Positions 48,363 to 54,872 of a stretch of DNA of 64,000 bases are shown in pieces (the first letter of the stretch is position 1; every line of letters begins with the position of its first letter). The position numbers and the translations under genes were made by a program. This DNA is from Polynucleobacter sp. UB-Tiil-W10 (GTDB taxonomy: Bacteria > Pseudomonadota > Gammaproteobacteria > Burkholderiales > Burkholderiaceae), in NCBI RefSeq assembly GCF_018881605.1, contig NZ_JACVPZ010000001.1, forward strand, positions 1,178,001 to 1,242,000, written 5' to 3'. Below the pieces are notes generated by a model. The model was not told where the DNA came from, did no database searches, and saw nothing but the letters and a program-made list of their open reading frames with translations.

Positions 48363-49175
48363 TTAATTTAATGCCTTGATGAGAAGGCTTATGGCGATGA
48401 TTAAGGTAAAGATCGCAAAAATTTGTTGCACCCTGGGACCACTGATTTTCTTCTCTAGAAATTTTCCAAGCAATAAGCCAAATAAAGAGCCGATTGAAAA
48501 TGGAATTGCCATTCCTGTATTAAGAGTCCCAGAGGCGAGTGAAATAAATGCCCCTCCAGCTGAAACAATTGCCAATACCCCAAGAGAGGTTGCAACAATG
48601 GACTTCATGGGAAGGTCAGTAAATTTGTTGAGTGCCGGTACTAGAATAAATCCACCCCCAACACCAAGTAAGCCCGATAGAAATCCTGCGCTGGCCCCTG
48701 CGAACATAAGAGCTCTTGCGCAAGGGACCGTCCAGATTAGTTTTCCAATGGAGAGATCCAATTGGCATGGCGGAGCTTTAGCGCTATGTATGGGTTTTCC
48801 TGAGAGGATTCTTGCAACTTGTAATAGCATACGAATAGAAACATACATTAGCACCAAGCTAAATAGTATTAGGAGTGGAGTATTAGGAGTTTGCTGGGCA
48901 AGCCATAAGCCTAAGGGAGATAACAGTAAGCCAAATAAAGCCATAAATGCAGCTGCTTTATAGCGGAGCAGTTTGGCATTCAAACCTATCATTGCTCCAG
49001 CGCCGGCAGAAATAGTAATTGCTGTTAATGCAATTGGGCCCGCTTCAGAAATCGGAAGGTGAAGAAGAAAAACCAGCAAAGGCACCGATAGGATACCCCC
49101 GCCAGCTCCGGTAAGCCCCATCAAGATGCCAACAAATGCTCCAATGGCTAAAGTTAGGTAGGGTAAAAGATCCAT
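48363..49175 (-). CDS. TauE/SafE-family sulfite exporter
   Basis: A 270-residue protein with about eight TM helices and the two family repeats: LMGLTGAGGGILSVPLLVFLL near residues 20-40 and LSGLLGVGGGFILVPAL near 165-181. ATG 49175 overlaps none of the SQR stop but is 3 bases after it, so the genes are coupled. In this setting it should export sulfite or thiosulfate made by the persulfide pathway. Confidence 0.85.
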   Translation of the reverse strand: MDLLPYLTLAIGAFVGILMGLTGAGGGILSVPLLVFLLHLPISEAGPIALTAITISAGAGAMIGLNAKLLRYKAAAFMALFGLLLSPLGLWLAQQTPNTPLLILFSLVLMYVSIRMLLQVARILSGKPIHSAKAPPCQLDLSIGKLIWTVPCARALMFAGASAGFLSGLLGVGGGFILVPALNKFTDLPMKSIVATSLGVLAIVSAGGAFISLASGTLNTGMAIPFSIGSLFGLLLGKFLEKKISGPRVQQIFAIFTLIIAISLLIKALN

Positions 49176-49178
49176 CAA

Positions 49179-50423
49179 TTAATTTTCAAATGGACGTGCT
49201 AACCATTCCCTGCCTTTCAGCATGGCATTCCAGTAAAGCCAAGGAAGTACATCTTTCTTCAGGATCCAGGCAAGCTTTGTAGCCTTGAGTGGATTAATGA
49301 GCCAAGGAAAGGTGGGGAGAAGTTTTCCACCAAAGCCAAACTCGGCCAAAATAATTTTTCCATTCTCAACCGTCAAGGGGCATGAACCATATCCATCATA
49401 TTTGGTTGGCAACGGTTTGTTATGTTTGGCAGCCAGTAGATTTTCTGCAACAACTACGATTTGTTTTCTGGCTGCTGCAGCTGTCTTGGAGTTTGGTGAA
49501 GAGCAACAGTCGCCTAAACCAAAAATATTAGGATAGCGAGTATGTTGCAGTGTGAATTGGTCAACATCTACAAAGCCATCAACATTAGCCACCGAACTGC
49601 CTTTAAGACAGTCTTGAGGCCCTTGAGGAGGTACTACATGCAGAATATCAAAGGATTTTTCTACTTGACTGACATTGCCGTTAGCATCTTTGACTGCAAA
49701 AATCGCCTTTTTAGAAGGGCCATCAACCCTAATGAGATTGATGTTGAAATTGAGTTTTGCGTTATATTTTTTAACGTATTCCATTAAGGGTGGAACAAAA
49801 TCCGCCACACCAAAGAGGGCGGCACCTGCATTATTTAATTCCACCTCAATATTTTTCAATCTACCCTGCTTTTGCCACTCATAGCAAGATAGATACATTG
49901 CCTTTTGGGGTGCACCCGGGCATTTGATTGGCATAGGAGGTTGTGTAAAAATCGCTTTCCCAGACTTGAGATTTTTAACTAGCTCCCAAGTATATGGGGA
50001 GTATTCAAAGCTGTAGTTAGAGGTCACACCATTTTTACCGATTGTTTCTGCGAGTCCTGGAATTGCATCCCAGTTGGATTTGATGCCCGTAGCAATAGCT
50101 AATTGCTTATATTTGATAGGCGTACCACTTTGGACTAGAACTTCATTTGTCTCTGGATTAAAGCCGGTGATCTTATCCTTGATCCACTTAACTCCTAGTG
50201 GAATTAAATCTTTAGTTTGGCGACGAGTATTTTTTATCTTAAATGCACCACCGCCCACCAGAGTCCATGCGGGCTGGTAATAATGCACTTCAGAGGGTTC
50301 AATAATGGCAATACTTAGTGATGAATCCCTGAGTTTTAGGCTGGCGGCCAAGCCTATGCCGGCAGCGCCGCCGCCCGCAATCACAACATCAAATACGGTT
50401 AAGTCTGCTTGCGCTGAAACCAT
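49179..50423 (-). CDS. sqr: Sulfide:quinone oxidoreductase, type-II-like
   Basis: A 414-residue flavoprotein with FDVVIAGGGAAGIGLAA (residues 11-27). Catalytic cysteines are identifiable: Cys168 in KCPGAPQKAMYLSC and Cys348 in GSCPLTVENGK, the positions matching those that form the trisulfide in human-type SQOR. It oxidises sulfide, passing electrons to quinone and the sulfane sulfur to an acceptor. A C-terminal amphipathic stretch fits monotopic membrane binding. It is divergent from the persulfide dioxygenase and in operon with the TauE/SafE gene. Confidence 0.85.
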   Translation of the reverse strand: MVSAQADLTVFDVVIAGGGAAGIGLAASLKLRDSSLSIAIIEPSEVHYYQPAWTLVGGGAFKIKNTRRQTKDLIPLGVKWIKDKITGFNPETNEVLVQSGTPIKYKQLAIATGIKSNWDAIPGLAETIGKNGVTSNYSFEYSPYTWELVKNLKSGKAIFTQPPMPIKCPGAPQKAMYLSCYEWQKQGRLKNIEVELNNAGAALFGVADFVPPLMEYVKKYNAKLNFNINLIRVDGPSKKAIFAVKDANGNVSQVEKSFDILHVVPPQGPQDCLKGSSVANVDGFVDVDQFTLQHTRYPNIFGLGDCCSSPNSKTAAAARKQIVVVAENLLAAKHNKPLPTKYDGYGSCPLTVENGKIILAEFGFGGKLLPTFPWLINPLKATKLAWILKKDVLPWLYWNAMLKGREWLARPFEN

Positions 50424-50520
50424 TTTGTCCCCACTTCTATATATTGGTTGGATTTAGGACACTAAATTAGCCTGAAATACGGCAATTGCCTATCAGGGTT
50501 TATTATTAGTTTATATTTTT

Positions 50521-50535
50521 GTATAGTATCTATCC
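50521..50535. promoter_or_regulatory. Imperfect palindrome in the SQR/persulfide dioxygenase divergent region
   Basis: GTATAGTATCTATCC has ATAG and CTAT arms around a 3-base centre, with 5 of 6 outer pairs matching, and overlaps a possible -10 (TATAGT) for the rightward gene. BigR/SqrR-type repressors bind AT-rich dyads in such divergent regions, and an ArsR gene of that type lies two genes away. Tentative. Confidence 0.3.
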
Positions 50536-50571
50536 TAAAATAAACCATTCAATGCAAACTGGAAAAAATAC

Positions 50572-51432
50572 ATGAAACCGATTGTTAAGGGCTTTTTTGA
50601 CCCAGATACGTGGACCGTCACTTATGTAGTTTATGAGAAACCTGGGTCACCCTGTTTGATCGTTGATTCAGTCCTCAATTATGACCATAAGTCTGGGCGA
50701 ACTAAAACCAAATCAGCCGACGAGGTGATTGATTTTGTCAAAAAGAATAACTTGGTTACACAATGGATTTTAGAAACCCATGCGCACGCTGACCATGTCT
50801 CAGCCGCTCCTTATCTCAAGTCTCAGCTTGGCGGCAAGATTGCCATTGGCGATCATATAGCGTTGGTACAGAGTGTATTTAAGAAAGTGTTCAATTTAGA
50901 GGAGGGGTTCTCAACTGATGGCTCCCAATTTGATTACTTACTCAAAGATGGCGAGGAAGTCCAATTTGGCAATTTAAGCTTTAAATCTCTGTTTGTTCCT
51001 GGACATACTCCAGCCTGTATGGCCTATCAAGTGGGGGATGCTGTTTTTGTGGGCGACACCATGTTTATGCCTGATGTTGGTAGTGCAAGATGTGACTTTC
51101 CTGGAGGGGATGCGCATACCCTTTATCGGTCCATGAAAAAGATCCTGAGTCTGCCGGATCAAACCAGATTGTTCATGTGTCATGACTATCCTCCAAATGG
51201 GCGCGCTGTAAATTATGAGACAACCGTAGCCGAGCAAAAGAAGTCAAATATTCATATGCATGATGGCATTACCGAAGACGAGTTTGTACAAATGCGCAGC
51301 AAGCGAGATGCTTCATTAGATATGCCAGTGCTTATTTTGCCGTCGATCCAAATCAATATTCGAGCTGGTGAGATGCCTCCCAAGGAAAACAATGGGATCG
51401 CTTATTTAAAAATTCCACTAAACGCTCTTTAA
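50572..51432 (+). CDS. Metallo-beta-lactamase-fold persulfide dioxygenase
   Basis: A 286-residue protein of the ETHE1/BLH class. THAHADHVSAAPYLK near 69-83 is the HxHxDH motif; VPGHTPACMAYQVGDAVFVGD holds the next His and Asp; ARCDFPGGDAHTLYRSM is typical of the non-glyoxalase persulfide dioxygenases, as is MCHDYPPNGR. It oxidises glutathione persulfide to sulfite. The TAA overlaps the ATG of the ArsR gene. Divergent from sqr, whose product it would consume. Confidence 0.87.
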   Translation: MKPIVKGFFDPDTWTVTYVVYEKPGSPCLIVDSVLNYDHKSGRTKTKSADEVIDFVKKNNLVTQWILETHAHADHVSAAPYLKSQLGGKIAIGDHIALVQSVFKKVFNLEEGFSTDGSQFDYLLKDGEEVQFGNLSFKSLFVPGHTPACMAYQVGDAVFVGDTMFMPDVGSARCDFPGGDAHTLYRSMKKILSLPDQTRLFMCHDYPPNGRAVNYETTVAEQKKSNIHMHDGITEDEFVQMRSKRDASLDMPVLILPSIQINIRAGEMPPKENNGIAYLKIPLNAL

Positions 51433-51758
51433 TGCTTATGTTGGCTGATAAACGTCGGGTTGCGGAATTTAAAAAAATGCAGGCTTCCGCAGTAAAGGCT
51501 TGTGATTTCCTAAAGGTGATCTCGAACCCCAATCGCTTAATGCTGCTTTGTGAAATTGCGGTTGGAGAGAGGTGCGTTGGCGATCTGGAGGATTCAACGG
51601 GAATACGCCAGCCAACATTATCGCAACAGCTTACCGTTCTCAGGACAAAAAAAATGGTTAAAACACGTAGAGAGGGCAAGCAGATTTATTACTCGCTTGC
51701 TAGTGATGTTGCTCTTTCTGTAATGAATGTGCTGTACGATCATTTTTGTAAAAAGTAA
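51432..51758 (+). CDS. ArsR-family persulfide-sensing repressor, BigR/SqrR-like
   Basis: A 108-residue winged-helix protein: LKVISNPNRLMLLCEIAVGE, then RQPTLSQQLTVLRTKKMV (recognition helix) and EGKQIYYSLAS (wing). Cys40 and Cys106 correspond to the pair that forms a tetrasulfide crosslink in BigR/SqrR; a further Cys24 and Cys48 are present. No metal-site Cys motif of ArsR/SmtB type is seen. By linkage it should derepress the dioxygenase gene and probably the divergent sqr-tauE genes when persulfides build up. Confidence 0.85.
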   Translation: MLMLADKRRVAEFKKMQASAVKACDFLKVISNPNRLMLLCEIAVGERCVGDLEDSTGIRQPTLSQQLTVLRTKKMVKTRREGKQIYYSLASDVALSVMNVLYDHFCKK

Positions 51759-51772
51759 ACCACTCACGGAGT

Positions 51773-52195
51773 TCAATTGGGTGTTGTTTGTTTTTTCTGA
51801 ATCAGGGTATGTAGCAAGAACACGAAGAAAAAGAGTAATCCCACTATCCAATGGATATTTATTACTCCATCCCTAATCTCTTCAGGTCCGTAATATAGAA
51901 GAGCGCCAGAAATAAGCAGTACGGCAAGAAAACCCAGCTGACTAAAGCCGCTCCACCATTGCTTCTTAGACTTATACCCTGCCTTGAGATGGAATGGTAA
52001 TACCGAGCCAAGAGCCAAGGTTGCCAATATTGCAGCAATGCCGTGTGCCGCAAGGATACTGTGGGCGCCAAGAGCAGATCTTTGAATTTGGAATTGATGA
52101 CCTAGTAAATACATCAGGCCTGTGATGGAGCAGGCCGCCATGCCATAGATGACAAACATTCTTTGCCAGTGCGGCATCTTCCCAAGGCGACTCAT
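51773..52195 (-). CDS. Four-helix membrane protein with His residues, possible b-type cytochrome
   Basis: 140 residues in four TM helices (about 13-33, 45-66, 85-102, 113-131). His45, His51 and His69 lie in or at the end of helix 2 and His115 and His129 in helix 4, a spacing that could bind heme b in the way of cytochrome b561-like proteins; this is inference. It overlaps the apbE stop by 4 bases (ATGA) and is the last gene of the Fur-box operon. It would suit passing electrons from quinol or another donor to the FMN-binding protein. Confidence 0.55.
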   Translation of the reverse strand: MSRLGKMPHWQRMFVIYGMAACSITGLMYLLGHQFQIQRSALGAHSILAAHGIAAILATLALGSVLPFHLKAGYKSKKQWWSGFSQLGFLAVLLISGALLYYGPEEIRDGVINIHWIVGLLFFFVFLLHTLIQKKQTTPN

Positions 52196-53013
52196 GCACT
52201 AATCCTTATGGCTTGTGCCGAGAATTTATTAAAACAAGGGTGATGCTCATTATTGGATAGGGCAAGAACCTTTGTTAGCGCATCTGCATAGACGCATTCT
52301 TTTGCAAGAATGGAGAATGATCCGGAAACCTCTGCATGGACTTCAGAAAAATGCTGAGCCAAGGGGTTGATGATGTGACTCTTCTGGCGATCTCTTTTTG
52401 CAAAGTAAAGACTGCTCGTGGCAATCGCACCGTCTTTCAAAGAACCAATTTCAATAATCTCATTAGGGGTTTCGGGGTTACGAACTTGAATAGGAAGAGA
52501 AGTGCCCCCGAATACCCGTAGGTCCCCACCAGCATTTACTGAGCCTGATGAAATACCTTCTGATATCAAGACTCTAACCGCCATATCTACCGCAAACCCC
52601 TTAGCAATTCCGCCTAGATCCAAGCAGGCTGGACGGGAGGACTTTATCAAGTCGGGCGCTAAGAAGTAAATATCTTCAATTCCACCGAGCTCATGATTTG
52701 ACAGGGTGATATGACCTGGAAGCAAGCCTGCGGCAACCAGTCGGTGGCCGATTCCGCAATTAAATAAGCCATTAGATTCAATATGAACCTCTTTCGCAAT
52801 CCGGATGACTTGGGCAGTCCACGGATGAATTTCAACGACCTCTAAGTGGGCACGTTGATTGATTTGGCTGAGCTCGCTTTTAGGATCATGAAATCCCATC
52901 AAGTCATGAACGTTTTGAATGGCTGCAAAAGCATTCTCAATGGCTACTGGACCATCATCTTGATCTATGGAGATTTCAACAAAGGTTCCGAGTAGGGGTT
53001 TGCATCGAATCAT
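52192..53013 (-). CDS. apbE: FAD:protein FMN transferase (ApbE)
   Basis: A 273-residue ApbE: LLGTFVEISI near residues 6-15, DLGGIAKGFAVDMAV near 133-147 and VNAGGDLRVFG near 160-170, the metal and FAD sites. It covalently attaches FMN to a Thr of an acceptor protein, which is almost surely the adjacent FMN-binding protein. No signal peptide is obvious at the N-terminus (MIRCKPLLGTF), which suggests either cytoplasmic action or a missed exported start; ApbE usually works outside the cytoplasm. It starts 6 bases after the FMN-binding gene. Confidence 0.88.
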   Translation of the reverse strand: MIRCKPLLGTFVEISIDQDDGPVAIENAFAAIQNVHDLMGFHDPKSELSQINQRAHLEVVEIHPWTAQVIRIAKEVHIESNGLFNCGIGHRLVAAGLLPGHITLSNHELGGIEDIYFLAPDLIKSSRPACLDLGGIAKGFAVDMAVRVLISEGISSGSVNAGGDLRVFGGTSLPIQVRNPETPNEIIEIGSLKDGAIATSSLYFAKRDRQKSHIINPLAQHFSEVHAEVSGSFSILAKECVYADALTKVLALSNNEHHPCFNKFSAQAIRISA

Positions 53014-53019
53014 TTTTAC

Positions 53020-53577
53020 CTACTTGCCAGGAATGGACTTTGAATTGGTATTCTTTAGTGCCAAATCGTATAAAACGGTTACACGCTTAACGCCATCTGT
53101 AATGTGCTTACAAGAAAGCGTTGCGCCACTAATATTCTGGATATCTTGGTTAAGCTTGATGGGGTCGTTTATCGTCTTGCCAATAAATTGCTTACGCCAT
53201 TGGGGCTCTGCAACCTCATACCCATAAGATTCAACATATTCTAGGATTTCAATTCCTAGGATGCCACCGGTTGCACTAAGCGCTACTGCATAAGTGACCA
53301 TTTCATGTTTGCCAATGACTTCGTCGATTACAAGCCAGCCGCCATCAGCCGACTTCCAGATGCGCTGTCCCTGGAATGGGTAGCGAATGCTGGATGCAGC
53401 ACGCATCTTTTCTTGTAGATCATCTGTAATGATGATGGGATTTATCGTAAGCGTTTTATTTGGGAATAGAATTTTTTGAGCTTGCTCTGCCGAAACATAA
53501 ATTTTTGCATGCGCAATGATGGGTGCGCTTATGATTGCAAGGCCAAAAATAGCTATTGGGCTGGGTTTCCAGATCAT
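53020..53577 (-). CDS. Periplasmic FMN-binding domain protein
   Basis: A 185-residue protein with a signal peptide (IAIFGLAIISAPIIAHA, cleaved near residue 24). The FMN_bind domain has VALSATGGILGIEILEY and the flavinylation motif DIQNISGATLSCKHIT near 145-160, where the Thr of SGAT is the expected covalent FMN site. EGVxx-like Tyr-Gly-Tyr (YVESYGYEVAEP) follows the first part. It is a likely periplasmic one-electron carrier. The order barrel, 59-residue protein, FMN protein, ApbE, membrane protein is on one strand with short gaps. Confidence 0.82.
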   Translation of the reverse strand: MIWKPSPIAIFGLAIISAPIIAHAKIYVSAEQAQKILFPNKTLTINPIIITDDLQEKMRAASSIRYPFQGQRIWKSADGGWLVIDEVIGKHEMVTYAVALSATGGILGIEILEYVESYGYEVAEPQWRKQFIGKTINDPIKLNQDIQNISGATLSCKHITDGVKRVTVLYDLALKNTNSKSIPGK

Positions 53578-53613
53578 GATGAATAAGTTTAGATAAAAGA
53601 TTGAGAATTCAAT

Positions 53614-53793
53614 TTATGTGGCGAGTAATTCATTGGCTTCATAGCAAAGCATTTGAATGTTTGTGTCTATACCTTGTTTTTCTGCCAATGCTTCAAACAT
53701 CATCAATGCCCTCCTTCTTGCTGTGGGGCATTGTGTCGATTGAAACTTCACTAAGTGAGTTAAAGCTGCAACTAATAGGTTCTGAATTTCCAT
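53614..53793 (-). CDS. Small conserved-looking protein of the Fur-box operon, 59 residues
   Basis: Translating the minus strand between the barrel gene and the FMN-binding gene gives a 59-residue protein starting MEIQNLLVAALTHLVKF, followed by QSTQCPTARRRALMMFEAL and ending CYEANELLAT. It is mostly helical, with two Cys (22 and 50) and no signal peptide or TM. ATG 53793 is 13 bases after the barrel gene's stop, with GGAT about 9 bases ahead. No family is recognised; codon pattern and position argue for a real gene. Confidence 0.6.
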   Translation of the reverse strand: MEIQNLLVAALTHLVKFQSTQCPTARRRALMMFEALAEKQGIDTNIQMLCYEANELLAT

Positions 53794-53806
53794 AATGTCT
53801 ATCCAA

Positions 53807-54721
53807 TCAATTTAGTGGGAAGCCAACTTTTACAATGAATTCATTTACAGAATGGCTATCCCAAACACGTGCGTTAGAGCATTCGGCCTCTCCGCCACCC
53901 ATACAGTTGCCACCGGCCAGCTGATAGCGCCATGCTCCTGTGACCCACCAATCCTTTGCGGCATAGTGCATATTGGGCCCCACAAAAGTGGCTCTTTGTA
54001 CTTGATTGCGTAAGTTCAATTCTGAATAGTCGTTATGAAAGCGAGCCTCAACACCCGCTGACCATTTGGGGGCAAAACGATAGCTGGCGCCTATTAAAAA
54101 ATCCATCATTGATTCCGGCACATTTCCGTTTTCAATAAACTTTAATCGTTCATTGGCGAGCACGATATTTCCTGCCAAAATTAATCGATCATCAATAAAG
54201 TTTGATTGGAGTAAGAGCCTCGCTTCAAGCTCATCTTTATTTTTCCCCCATGTCGGCTCAAGATAAAGCCCCACACCGACAGGTGATGTCACTGGATTTG
54301 TAATCCGATAGATCGCCTCTAAGGAGCCACCTTCAATCCCGCTTTTCTTATAGGCTGTAGATGGGTCATGTGATGAAGGCACACCGTATCCCCCTGTACA
54401 AGTTGGCGAATCTCCGCATGCCTCTGGATTGGTGTAATTTTGATTGGCATTTGTATAGTAGGAGTTTATGTAGCCGGCAACTTGTAAGTCATTGGTTAGA
54501 CCATATTCCAGTTCAGATCTTGCGGTCCATGCTTCATAAGTTCCTGAAGACTGCTGTTGATTGAGTTGCAGACGCTGCTCAAATTCCAGTTTTCCCTTAG
54601 GTTGTAAATCTAGGGTGTAGATCCAGCCAAATACTCCCTCACCAGCGTGGGCTAACGAAAAATGAAGTGTGGCAACTAAGAAGAGGCTAAATGCAAGAAG
54701 TCTATTAATGGTCAATTTCAT
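53807..54721 (-). CDS. Outer-membrane beta-barrel-type protein (DUF6662-like)
   Basis: A 304-residue exported protein with signal peptide (LLAFSLFLVATLHFSLAHA, cleaved near residue 26). Alternating hydrophobic/polar strands throughout, GLYLEPTW, AGYINSYY and a final IVKVGFPLN, are typical of an outer-membrane barrel. The opening GEGVFGWIYTLDLQPKGKLEF resembles what I recall of DUF6662 proteins. No TonB box or plug domain, so it is not a TonB-dependent receptor. It is the first gene after the Fur-box promoter. AAGGGA lies before the ATG. Confidence 0.7.
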   Translation of the reverse strand: MKLTINRLLAFSLFLVATLHFSLAHAGEGVFGWIYTLDLQPKGKLEFEQRLQLNQQQSSGTYEAWTARSELEYGLTNDLQVAGYINSYYTNANQNYTNPEACGDSPTCTGGYGVPSSHDPSTAYKKSGIEGGSLEAIYRITNPVTSPVGVGLYLEPTWGKNKDELEARLLLQSNFIDDRLILAGNIVLANERLKFIENGNVPESMMDFLIGASYRFAPKWSAGVEARFHNDYSELNLRNQVQRATFVGPNMHYAAKDWWVTGAWRYQLAGGNCMGGGEAECSNARVWDSHSVNEFIVKVGFPLN

Positions 54722-54751
54722 GGTCCCTTATGGTTGATAGTGATTAATCTA

Positions 54752-54770
54752 AATGAGAATGGTTCTCAAT
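54752..54770. promoter_or_regulatory. Fur box 1
   Basis: AATGAGAATGGTTCTCAAT contains TGAGAAT-N-GTTCTCA, a Fur-type inverted repeat with one mismatch. On the minus strand it overlaps the end of the -10 hexamer and the transcription start of the barrel-protein operon. Confidence 0.75.
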
Positions 54771-54797
54771 ATATCACCAAATGAGAATCATTCTCAA
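54768..54797 (-). promoter_or_regulatory. Sigma-70 promoter of the Fur-box operon
   Basis: On the minus strand TTGAGA (plus coordinates 54792-54797) and TATATT (54768-54773) are separated by 18 bases. The -35 lies in Fur box 2 and the -10 touches Fur box 1, so both boxes would block RNA polymerase when iron-loaded Fur is bound. The transcript would run about 40 bases before the barrel gene's ATG at 54721. Confidence 0.6.
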
Positions 54798-54798
54798 A
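54780..54798. promoter_or_regulatory. Fur box 2
   Basis: AATGAGAATCATTCTCAAA contains the perfect inverted repeat TGAGAAT-C-ATTCTCA, near-identical to the classic Fur core. Its centre (54789) is 28 bases from that of box 1 (54761), that is, on a similar helical face. It overlaps the -35 of the minus-strand promoter. Confidence 0.8.
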
Positions 54799-54872
54799 TA
54801 GGAAAATGACCATTAAGTAAAAAATGGCGGAATTTATAGGCCTATTCTTGTTTGCTTGTAAGATTCCTCCAA

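Follow-up and report, generated by a model that had tools for sequence, protein, structure and literature searches.

The window analysed here is the whole 64,000-nt stretch C2:1178001-1242000 of the 2.04 Mb genome of Polynucleobacter sp. UB-Tiil-W10, and the present work concerns one operon within it, a candidate iron-regulated system for flavin-dependent electron transfer that stands behind two palindromes of the ferric uptake regulator (Fur) type. According to the list of open reading frames (ORFs) of the window, five minus-strand ORFs span 51773-54721 downstream of a single promoter, all of them as an earlier note on this DNA had described, and from the barrel gene to the membrane-protein gene they are separated by 13, 36 and 6 bases, followed by an overlap of 4 bases. 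The features of the operon and its control region are the following.

54782-54796, no strand: Fur-type palindrome 1 (box 1), TGAGAATCATTCTCA, an exact 7-1-7 palindrome, conserved in the genus loci.
54754-54768, read on the plus strand: Fur-type palindrome 2 (box 2), TGAGAATGGTTCTCA, one mismatch, 28 bp from palindrome 1.
54768-54797, minus strand: sigma-70-like promoter TTGAGA-18-TATATT, its -35 element inside box 1 and its -10 element abutting box 2.
53807-54721, minus strand: DUF6662 outer-membrane barrel, 304 residues, signal peptide recognised by eye, 12 strands predicted.
53614-53793, minus strand: 59-residue protein of no family, accessory, present in only part of the Polynucleobacter loci.
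53020-53577, minus strand: FMN_bind protein (FMN, flavin mononucleotide), 185 residues, signal peptide recognised by eye and ending in Ala-X-Ala.
Within the FMN_bind gene, minus strand: candidate flavin acceptor Thr153, within NISGATLSCKHIT, a sequence motif.
52192-53013, minus strand: ApbE flavin transferase, 273 residues, N-terminal signal peptide absent.
51773-52195, minus strand: four-helix membrane protein, 140 residues, DUF4405/cytochrome-b-like, predicted to bind two haems b.

The claim that one of the two palindromes is perfect is borne out by box 1, box 2 deviating at a single position, and no other palindrome with at most one mismatch occurs in the window. When three mismatches are allowed, eight window sites are found versus 4.4 expected, a number that 10 of 100 shuffles reach, so that there is no excess at this level. 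Genome-wide, a match to TGAGAATNATTCTCA with at most one mismatch occurs in five distinct places, namely two at the operon and one each before feoA, before a HiPIP-like gene and near an efflux-like gene (the HiPIP-like and efflux-like assignments being by eye), and with at most two mismatches 17 places are found versus five for a reversed control pattern. The strong site of the HiPIP-like gene, TGAGAACAATTCTCA, lies about 150 bp upstream (C2:1148136-1148150, the centre of locus L068). The promoter TTGAGA-18-TATATT, which had been described as covered by the palindromes, is present, but full cover is a slightly generous description: the -35 element lies within box 1 save its first base, and the -10 element overlaps box 2 by one base. 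Promoter-like matches in this region (three, versus 7.2 expected in shuffles) are not above chance; since such words are no commoner than in shuffles, the evidence for the promoter is its conservation and not its presence. TATATT is kept in 20 of 21 aligned promoters, in which the best-kept columns include the palindromes, TATATT and a block where the divergent gene begins. No Rfam family matched at the gathering threshold between 51000 and 56500.

Both the gene order and the boxes are kept in Polynucleobacter. All four core genes (barrel, FMN_bind, ApbE and four-helix protein) are present in 31 of 35 loci of one homologue set, the exceptions being three loci cut by contig ends (L041, L055, L057) and one (L063) without a match to the four-helix protein. 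The 59-residue gene falls outside this conserved core in the locus comparison, which leaves four of the five genes described in the earlier note as the set that is kept together. Boxes were counted in two locus sets that may share genomes, the first consisting of 30 loci, the best-scoring of the 113 genomes with an FMN_bind gene, and the second of 25 loci (L032-L056) from Polynucleobacter or betaproteobacterial bins. With at most two mismatches, at least one site lies upstream of the barrel gene in all 30 and all 25 loci, respectively, and two sites in 29 and 23; over 66 loci, 107 of the 109 sites at this threshold sit upstream of the barrel gene. So as not to pick close relatives alone, 20 further, lower-scoring members of the genus were read. 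The barrel gene is present in 19 of these, 17 of which have a Fur-type site (two sites in four, one in 13), and the remaining two loci begin at a contig end. In Polynucleobacter, the loci read have one box or more before the barrel gene unless the contig is cut there, even where the FMN_bind protein is only 44-52% identical. Several lower-scoring members have box forms closer to the classic one, such as TGATAATCATTATCA in L189, which we take to be the classic 7-1-7 Fur box. The earlier note had made the conservation of order and boxes a check on its proposal: the order is widely kept, and so are the boxes within the genus, but mostly not beyond it. A conserved Fur-type box over the promoter, the mark of a Fur regulon member, is thus found within Polynucleobacter and mostly missing elsewhere.

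The genome contains one Fur-family match, which lies above the cut-off of the Fur equivalog NF006999. Its own feoA is preceded, 72 bp upstream, by TGAGAACCATTCTCA, letter-identical to box 2, and a degenerate repeat of the site lies 31 bp further along. An upstream site within two mismatches of TGANAATNATTNTCA is present in each of the 20 feoB loci read, that of the same genome among them. Iron control of the operon gains support because feoAB has the same box and because the sole Fur-family match is a Fur equivalog. Across 151 genomes of the genus, the FMN_bind gene occurs in 113 and FeoB in 90; with descent ignored, FMN_bind is present in 85 of 90 feoB-positive versus 28 of 61 feoB-negative genomes (both 85, FMN_bind only 28, FeoB only 5, neither 33; Fisher test, 1.2e-11), and among genomes at least 90% complete in 72 of 75 versus 19 of 42 (72, 19, 3 and 23 in the same order, in a table derived by hand). 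Nramp, the control, is over its cut-off in 32 of 151 genomes, with FMN_bind in 30 of 32 Nramp-positive versus 83 of 119 other genomes (p 0.005). This association vanishes within feoB-positive and within feoB-negative genomes, whereas that of feoB with FMN_bind persists in Nramp-negative genomes (p 1e-9); the association of Nramp, the comparison gene, is the weaker one and is gone once feoB is held fixed. Two TonB-dependent receptor matches are found in the genome, nearest to B12 and zinc receptors. In the transcriptome of P. asymbioticus, feoA and feoB were about four-fold up in samples taken as iron-limited, and the accessible part of that report names only ferrous uptake, by FeoAB (PMC6629928).

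The FMN_bind protein matches its Pfam family at 39.7 bits (cut-off 22) and is nearest to RnfG/NqrC both by sequence and, among solved structures, by fold; in the FMN_bind alignment, the signal peptides, read by eye rather than with a prediction program, end in Ala-X-Ala. The flavinylation motif SGAT ascribed to it is present at residues 150-153, but the Asp that opens the published motif is Gln here, the window having Q-N-I-S-G-A-T instead of D-x-x-[S/T]-G-A-[S/T]. The 16 aligned FMN_bind proteins hardly differ in the acceptor region NISGATLSCKHITDGV, and its Cys is replaced by Ser or Ala in three of the four plasmid-borne relatives read. ApbE matches PF02424 at 135 bits (cut-off 25.6), its nearest solved chains being TM1553 and FAD:protein FMN transferases; its core residues are present, and the HIINP segment is kept in the window and lost in several relatives. 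Among the traits by which flavinylation clusters are recognised, an ApbE gene and a secreted flavinylation substrate are found here, and a secreted, usually lipid-anchored ApbE is not.

The membrane protein has seven histidines in 140 residues and four hydrophobic segments. All 18 sequences compared, the most distant at 25% identity, keep His51, His69, His115 and His129, a pattern that fits a two-haem cytochrome b. Its match to DUF4405 (PF14358), at 20.2 bits, is below the cut-off of 26.7, and a PDB sequence search with the profile of the four-helix protein returned no cytochrome. The barrel protein matches DUF6662 (PF20367) at 49.9 bits versus a cut-off of 27, best over residues 201-271, and its structural model has 12 strands at a predicted local distance difference test score (pLDDT) of 81, with FapF and a COG4313 channel as the nearest structures; a PDB sequence search with the barrel profile returned no barrel. 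The Pfam scan gave nothing above cut-off for the 59-residue protein, no match to PepSY or DUF2271 in the five operon proteins, and none to P19 or FTR1 in a set of eight proteins made up of these five and their neighbours.

We consider it probable that the operon encodes a Fur-repressed periplasmic assimilatory ferric reductase which feeds FeoB. This reading is based on the gene content and order, the boxes across the genus, the box common to feoAB and the histidines of apparent haem type. Under iron scarcity, Fur would leave both boxes and thereby allow joint expression of the operon and feoAB. Two putative haems b, held by the histidines of the four-helix protein, would take electrons through the inner membrane; the lack of an NAD(P)H domain in this protein makes quinol the most likely donor. 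Next in line would be the FMN of the periplasmic FMN_bind protein, presumably attached covalently by the dedicated ApbE, and the flavin would in turn reduce ferric iron or ferric chelates, a substrate suggested by the Fur boxes and feoB. Ferric chelates may enter through the 12-stranded DUF6662 channel, which is the least certain step, and FeoB would then import ferrous iron. The gene set had been proposed to reduce or import iron; import by the operon itself now appears less likely than reduction, as it contains no inner-membrane iron transporter and FeoAB lies elsewhere. A wider scheme, in which a dedicated DUF6662 channel, a covalent-FMN shuttle flavinylated by a signal-less ApbE that reads the divergent motif, the dihaem b protein and FeoAB would form a TonB-independent flavin route for iron across the whole envelope and serve this freshwater genus as its main ferric supply, possibly with reduction at the cell surface, seems rather unlikely as a whole.

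Outside the genus, the core gene order is found in Reyranella, Novosphingobium and Bradyrhizobium among the Proteobacteria and also in Acidobacteria (L057 being cut after ApbE). A search of the class found a closely related FMN_bind protein, with E below 1e-50, in 8 of 369 genomes, own included, and any FMN_bind match at 1e-10 in 80 of them. Among 13 loci with weaker matches, 12 have the order porin-like ORF - FMN_bind - PepSY-like ORF (Pfam was run for L165) and L164 is arranged otherwise; in L166, the porin-type operon is divergent from ORFs that by eye resemble feoA and feoB. The comparison of 12 porin-type promoters (L164 left out) with GATAATGATAATCATTATC gave a mixed picture, five reaching 13/19 and three being equalled or beaten by at most four of 200 shuffles. 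The family search matched 49 of 299 genomes, 34 of them in the genus Polynucleobacter, and 16 family loci from other genera were read, comprising a DUF6662 type (L208-L212) and a porin type (L213-L223). A weak Fur-like site stands at the barrel start in four of the five DUF6662-type operons (L208-L211); L208-L210 are similar in layout and site, and L212 has a broken barrel frame and no site. A Fur-like site of like quality was found in one of the 11 porin-type operons (L221). Within this family, Fur-type sites accompany mainly the DUF6662 type, and two genomes hold both operon types, G636 (L208, L222) and G651 (L209, L223). The porin-FMN_bind-ApbE-four-helix operons without Fur boxes that follow a gene for a peroxidase of the MauG/cytochrome c peroxidase (CCP) type or a look-alike of it may represent a flavin-fed peroxidase system.

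Other elements were seen upstream of these relatives. Small ORFs of no Pfam family, which contain a CxxC motif and the stretch LTMGS-T-R, lie upstream of the porin gene in L155 and L165; that of L155 directly follows a Fur-like box, and a similar start precedes the DUF6662 gene in L154. Kinship of the 59-residue protein with the small ORF before the porin-type operon was rejected, no alignment having been obtained. Elements like TTTAGATCAATTCTGAG, with three to four mismatches to the consensus named below, were found upstream of the barrel gene in L064-L066 and L228-L230 (L229 and L065 being the same genome) and not in L231-L232. These TTTAGA-TCAATTC-like elements are reminiscent of what we take to be the consensus of the iron control elements (ICE) of Irr, and possible Irr/ICE control in the Bradyrhizobium relatives is only a lead.

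Several observations weigh against a ferric reductase that feeds FeoB. The co-occurrence was scored on the FMN_bind gene and not on the whole operon, 28 of the 113 FMN_bind-bearing genomes have no FeoB match, and 12 FMN_bind match rows in the genus search were flagged with internal stops. At the flavinylation motif, GAT is kept in 16 of 16 sequences, Asp at -6 is found in none, and Gly replaces Ser at -3 in six; a change of this Asp to Ala has minor effects only, according to section 8 of PMC12052999. ApbE starts with MIRCKPLLGT, without a signal peptide, and an in-frame TAG stands two codons upstream; cytosolic ApbEs exist, one of them serving a cytosolic fumarate reductase. L183 (G026) keeps the 59-residue, FMN_bind, ApbE and four-helix genes and has no barrel match at the locus, the two boxes standing, by eye, before the 59-residue gene. 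Farther away, the box is absent in nine of ten more distant loci (L057, L059-L066), L058 having two sites with three mismatches, and among the class-level orthologues L154-L160 a good site is found in L155 alone, a weak one in L157 and none in five. Relatives carry other porins in place of DUF6662, and some have neighbours of another kind: cytochrome c peroxidase-like proteins at L180 (assigned with Pfam) and at L213-L218, L220 and L223 (by eye), a multicopper oxidase and ferritin adjoining L178, and copC/copD-like ORFs (by eye) downstream in L065 and L066. In addition, P. asymbioticus, whose operon status lies outside the comparison, is stated in PMC6629928 to be unable to draw on the Fe3+ in its medium.

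Such neighbours recall a module for periplasmic electron transfer in general, with an acceptor that would depend on the lineage (peroxide via a MauG/CCP-type peroxidase, copper proteins or iron) and whose Fur control in Polynucleobacter would reflect redox or iron-sparing needs and not iron uptake. In Ideonella, a CCP_MauG protein is encoded upstream of the porin-type relatives, with a similar ORF (by eye) before 8 of the 11 porin-type family loci, and a Methylocystis relative adjoins a multicopper oxidase and ferritin. Neighbours of these kinds were not seen next to the DUF6662-type operons of Polynucleobacter, which are followed by genes for a persulfide dioxygenase and a BigR-like protein. 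Another Fur-type site of the genome precedes the HiPIP-like electron-carrier gene, but the box common to feoAB and the strong co-occurrence with feoB make this alternative unlikely. Trans-envelope electron export, in which barrel and FMN_bind protein would carry electrons to acceptors at or beyond the surface (humics, ferric minerals), would resemble the porin-cytochrome conduits and would be under Fur control because its acceptor is iron. A barrel- or porin-like ORF does precede the FMN_bind gene in most loci read (a tally that excludes L233-L245, with L158, L159 and L164 undecided), and two unrelated barrel types (DUF6662 and Porin_O_P/OmpL-like) alternate before the same core, as if the outer-membrane partner were selected; the system usually includes an outer-membrane barrel, the type of which can change. 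The operon has no multihaem cytochrome, however, L183 has no barrel match, and a barrel of 12 strands would be narrow for a folded FMN_bind domain, the model disfavouring a wide electron conduit, and we regard export as quite improbable. Binding of the boxes by Zur, PerR or an ArsR protein, with an operon free of iron control, is most improbable: an ArsR/BigR-like gene lies 14 bases past the operon end, but it is convergent, fits best as BigR (below the model cut-off) and follows a persulfide-dioxygenase-like gene, and all three regulators were rejected on account of the single Fur-family match found, a Fur equivalog that scores far under the cut-offs for Zur (30.6 bits vs 167) and PerR, the form of the box, which in the divergent member L189 is TGATAATCATTATCA, and the presence of the same box at feoA.

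The operon is convergent with a sulfur island at 48363-51758, which encodes a TauE-like permease and a sulfide:quinone-reductase-like protein (both named by eye), as well as a Blh-like persulfide dioxygenase and a BigR-like ArsR regulator. Of the 24 longer genus loci (L032-L054, L056), 17 likewise have the dioxygenase and the regulator past the operon, some of the others being cut.

No published account of the gene set was found in the openly licensed literature, judged on titles and the openings of abstracts, and the word DUF6662 is absent from the literature searched; 'porin' and 'DUF6662' are absent from the main text of PMC8238504, as are 'barrel' and 'DUF6662' from that of PMC11334425. 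Fur-repressed flavinylation clusters are already known, and none was found described with DUF6662. To speak of a different kind of iron system, as the earlier note did, was too strong, since Fur-repressed ApbE clusters proposed for iron reduction are described in the accessible part of PMC8238504. The Fur-boxed candidate ferric-reductase operon, going with feoB, makes the iron supply of Polynucleobacter in oxic water testable, and DUF6662 gains a likely role. In Bradyrhizobium japonicum, according to PMC10760861, the periplasmic siderophore reductase FsrB/FoxB (COG3182) acts ahead of FeoAB, and the enzyme that reduces inorganic iron has yet to be identified. The operon offers a candidate type of reductase for inorganic ferric iron ahead of FeoAB, in general terms only: an FMN_bind protein of its family occurs in 15 of 117 genomes of the genus Bradyrhizobium.

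Compared with known systems, the operon shares with FsrB/FoxB a proposed ferric reduction outside the cytoplasm that feeds FeoAB, whereas a flavin protein, ApbE and a barrel are not mentioned in the accessible part of that account (PMC10760861). The PepSY-DUF2271-DUF4198-ApbE flavinylation clusters are Fur-repressed in Shewanella and Caulobacter, in the latter as CC_3059-3063 (PMC3751524, accessible part), and are proposed to serve ferric reduction and assimilation (PMC8238504, likewise). The operon resembles these clusters in having ApbE, a secreted flavinylation substrate, an inner-membrane electron carrier and Fur sites, but it has FMN_bind, a small DUF4405-like carrier and a DUF6662 barrel, and no DUF4198. 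With the DUF4405/FezC cytochromes encoded with apbE or ferrosomes it shares a membrane protein with conserved histidines, and one purified DUF4405 protein (beside apbE) and one FezC bind haem b; the published DUF4405 protein, however, has six helices and often clusters with a flavodoxin-type substrate, while the operon protein has four helices and stays below the Pfam cut-off (PMC11334425, accessible part). The Porin_O_P - FMN_bind - PepSY_TM operons of Gammaproteobacteria have a barrel, a periplasmic FMN_bind protein and a membrane carrier in the same order, some with Fur-like boxes; they differ in their barrel, in having PepSY instead of the DUF4405-like protein and in the lack of an ApbE match in 13 loci, and their FMN_bind family is distant (E 8.5e-11 to 1.8e-20, versus 2.3e-57 or better). 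FrcB, for its part, is reportedly a dihaem ferric reductase. NqrC and RnfG, which are subunits of large ion pumps, have the same FMN_bind fold, but unlike them the protein of this operon is free-standing and exported.

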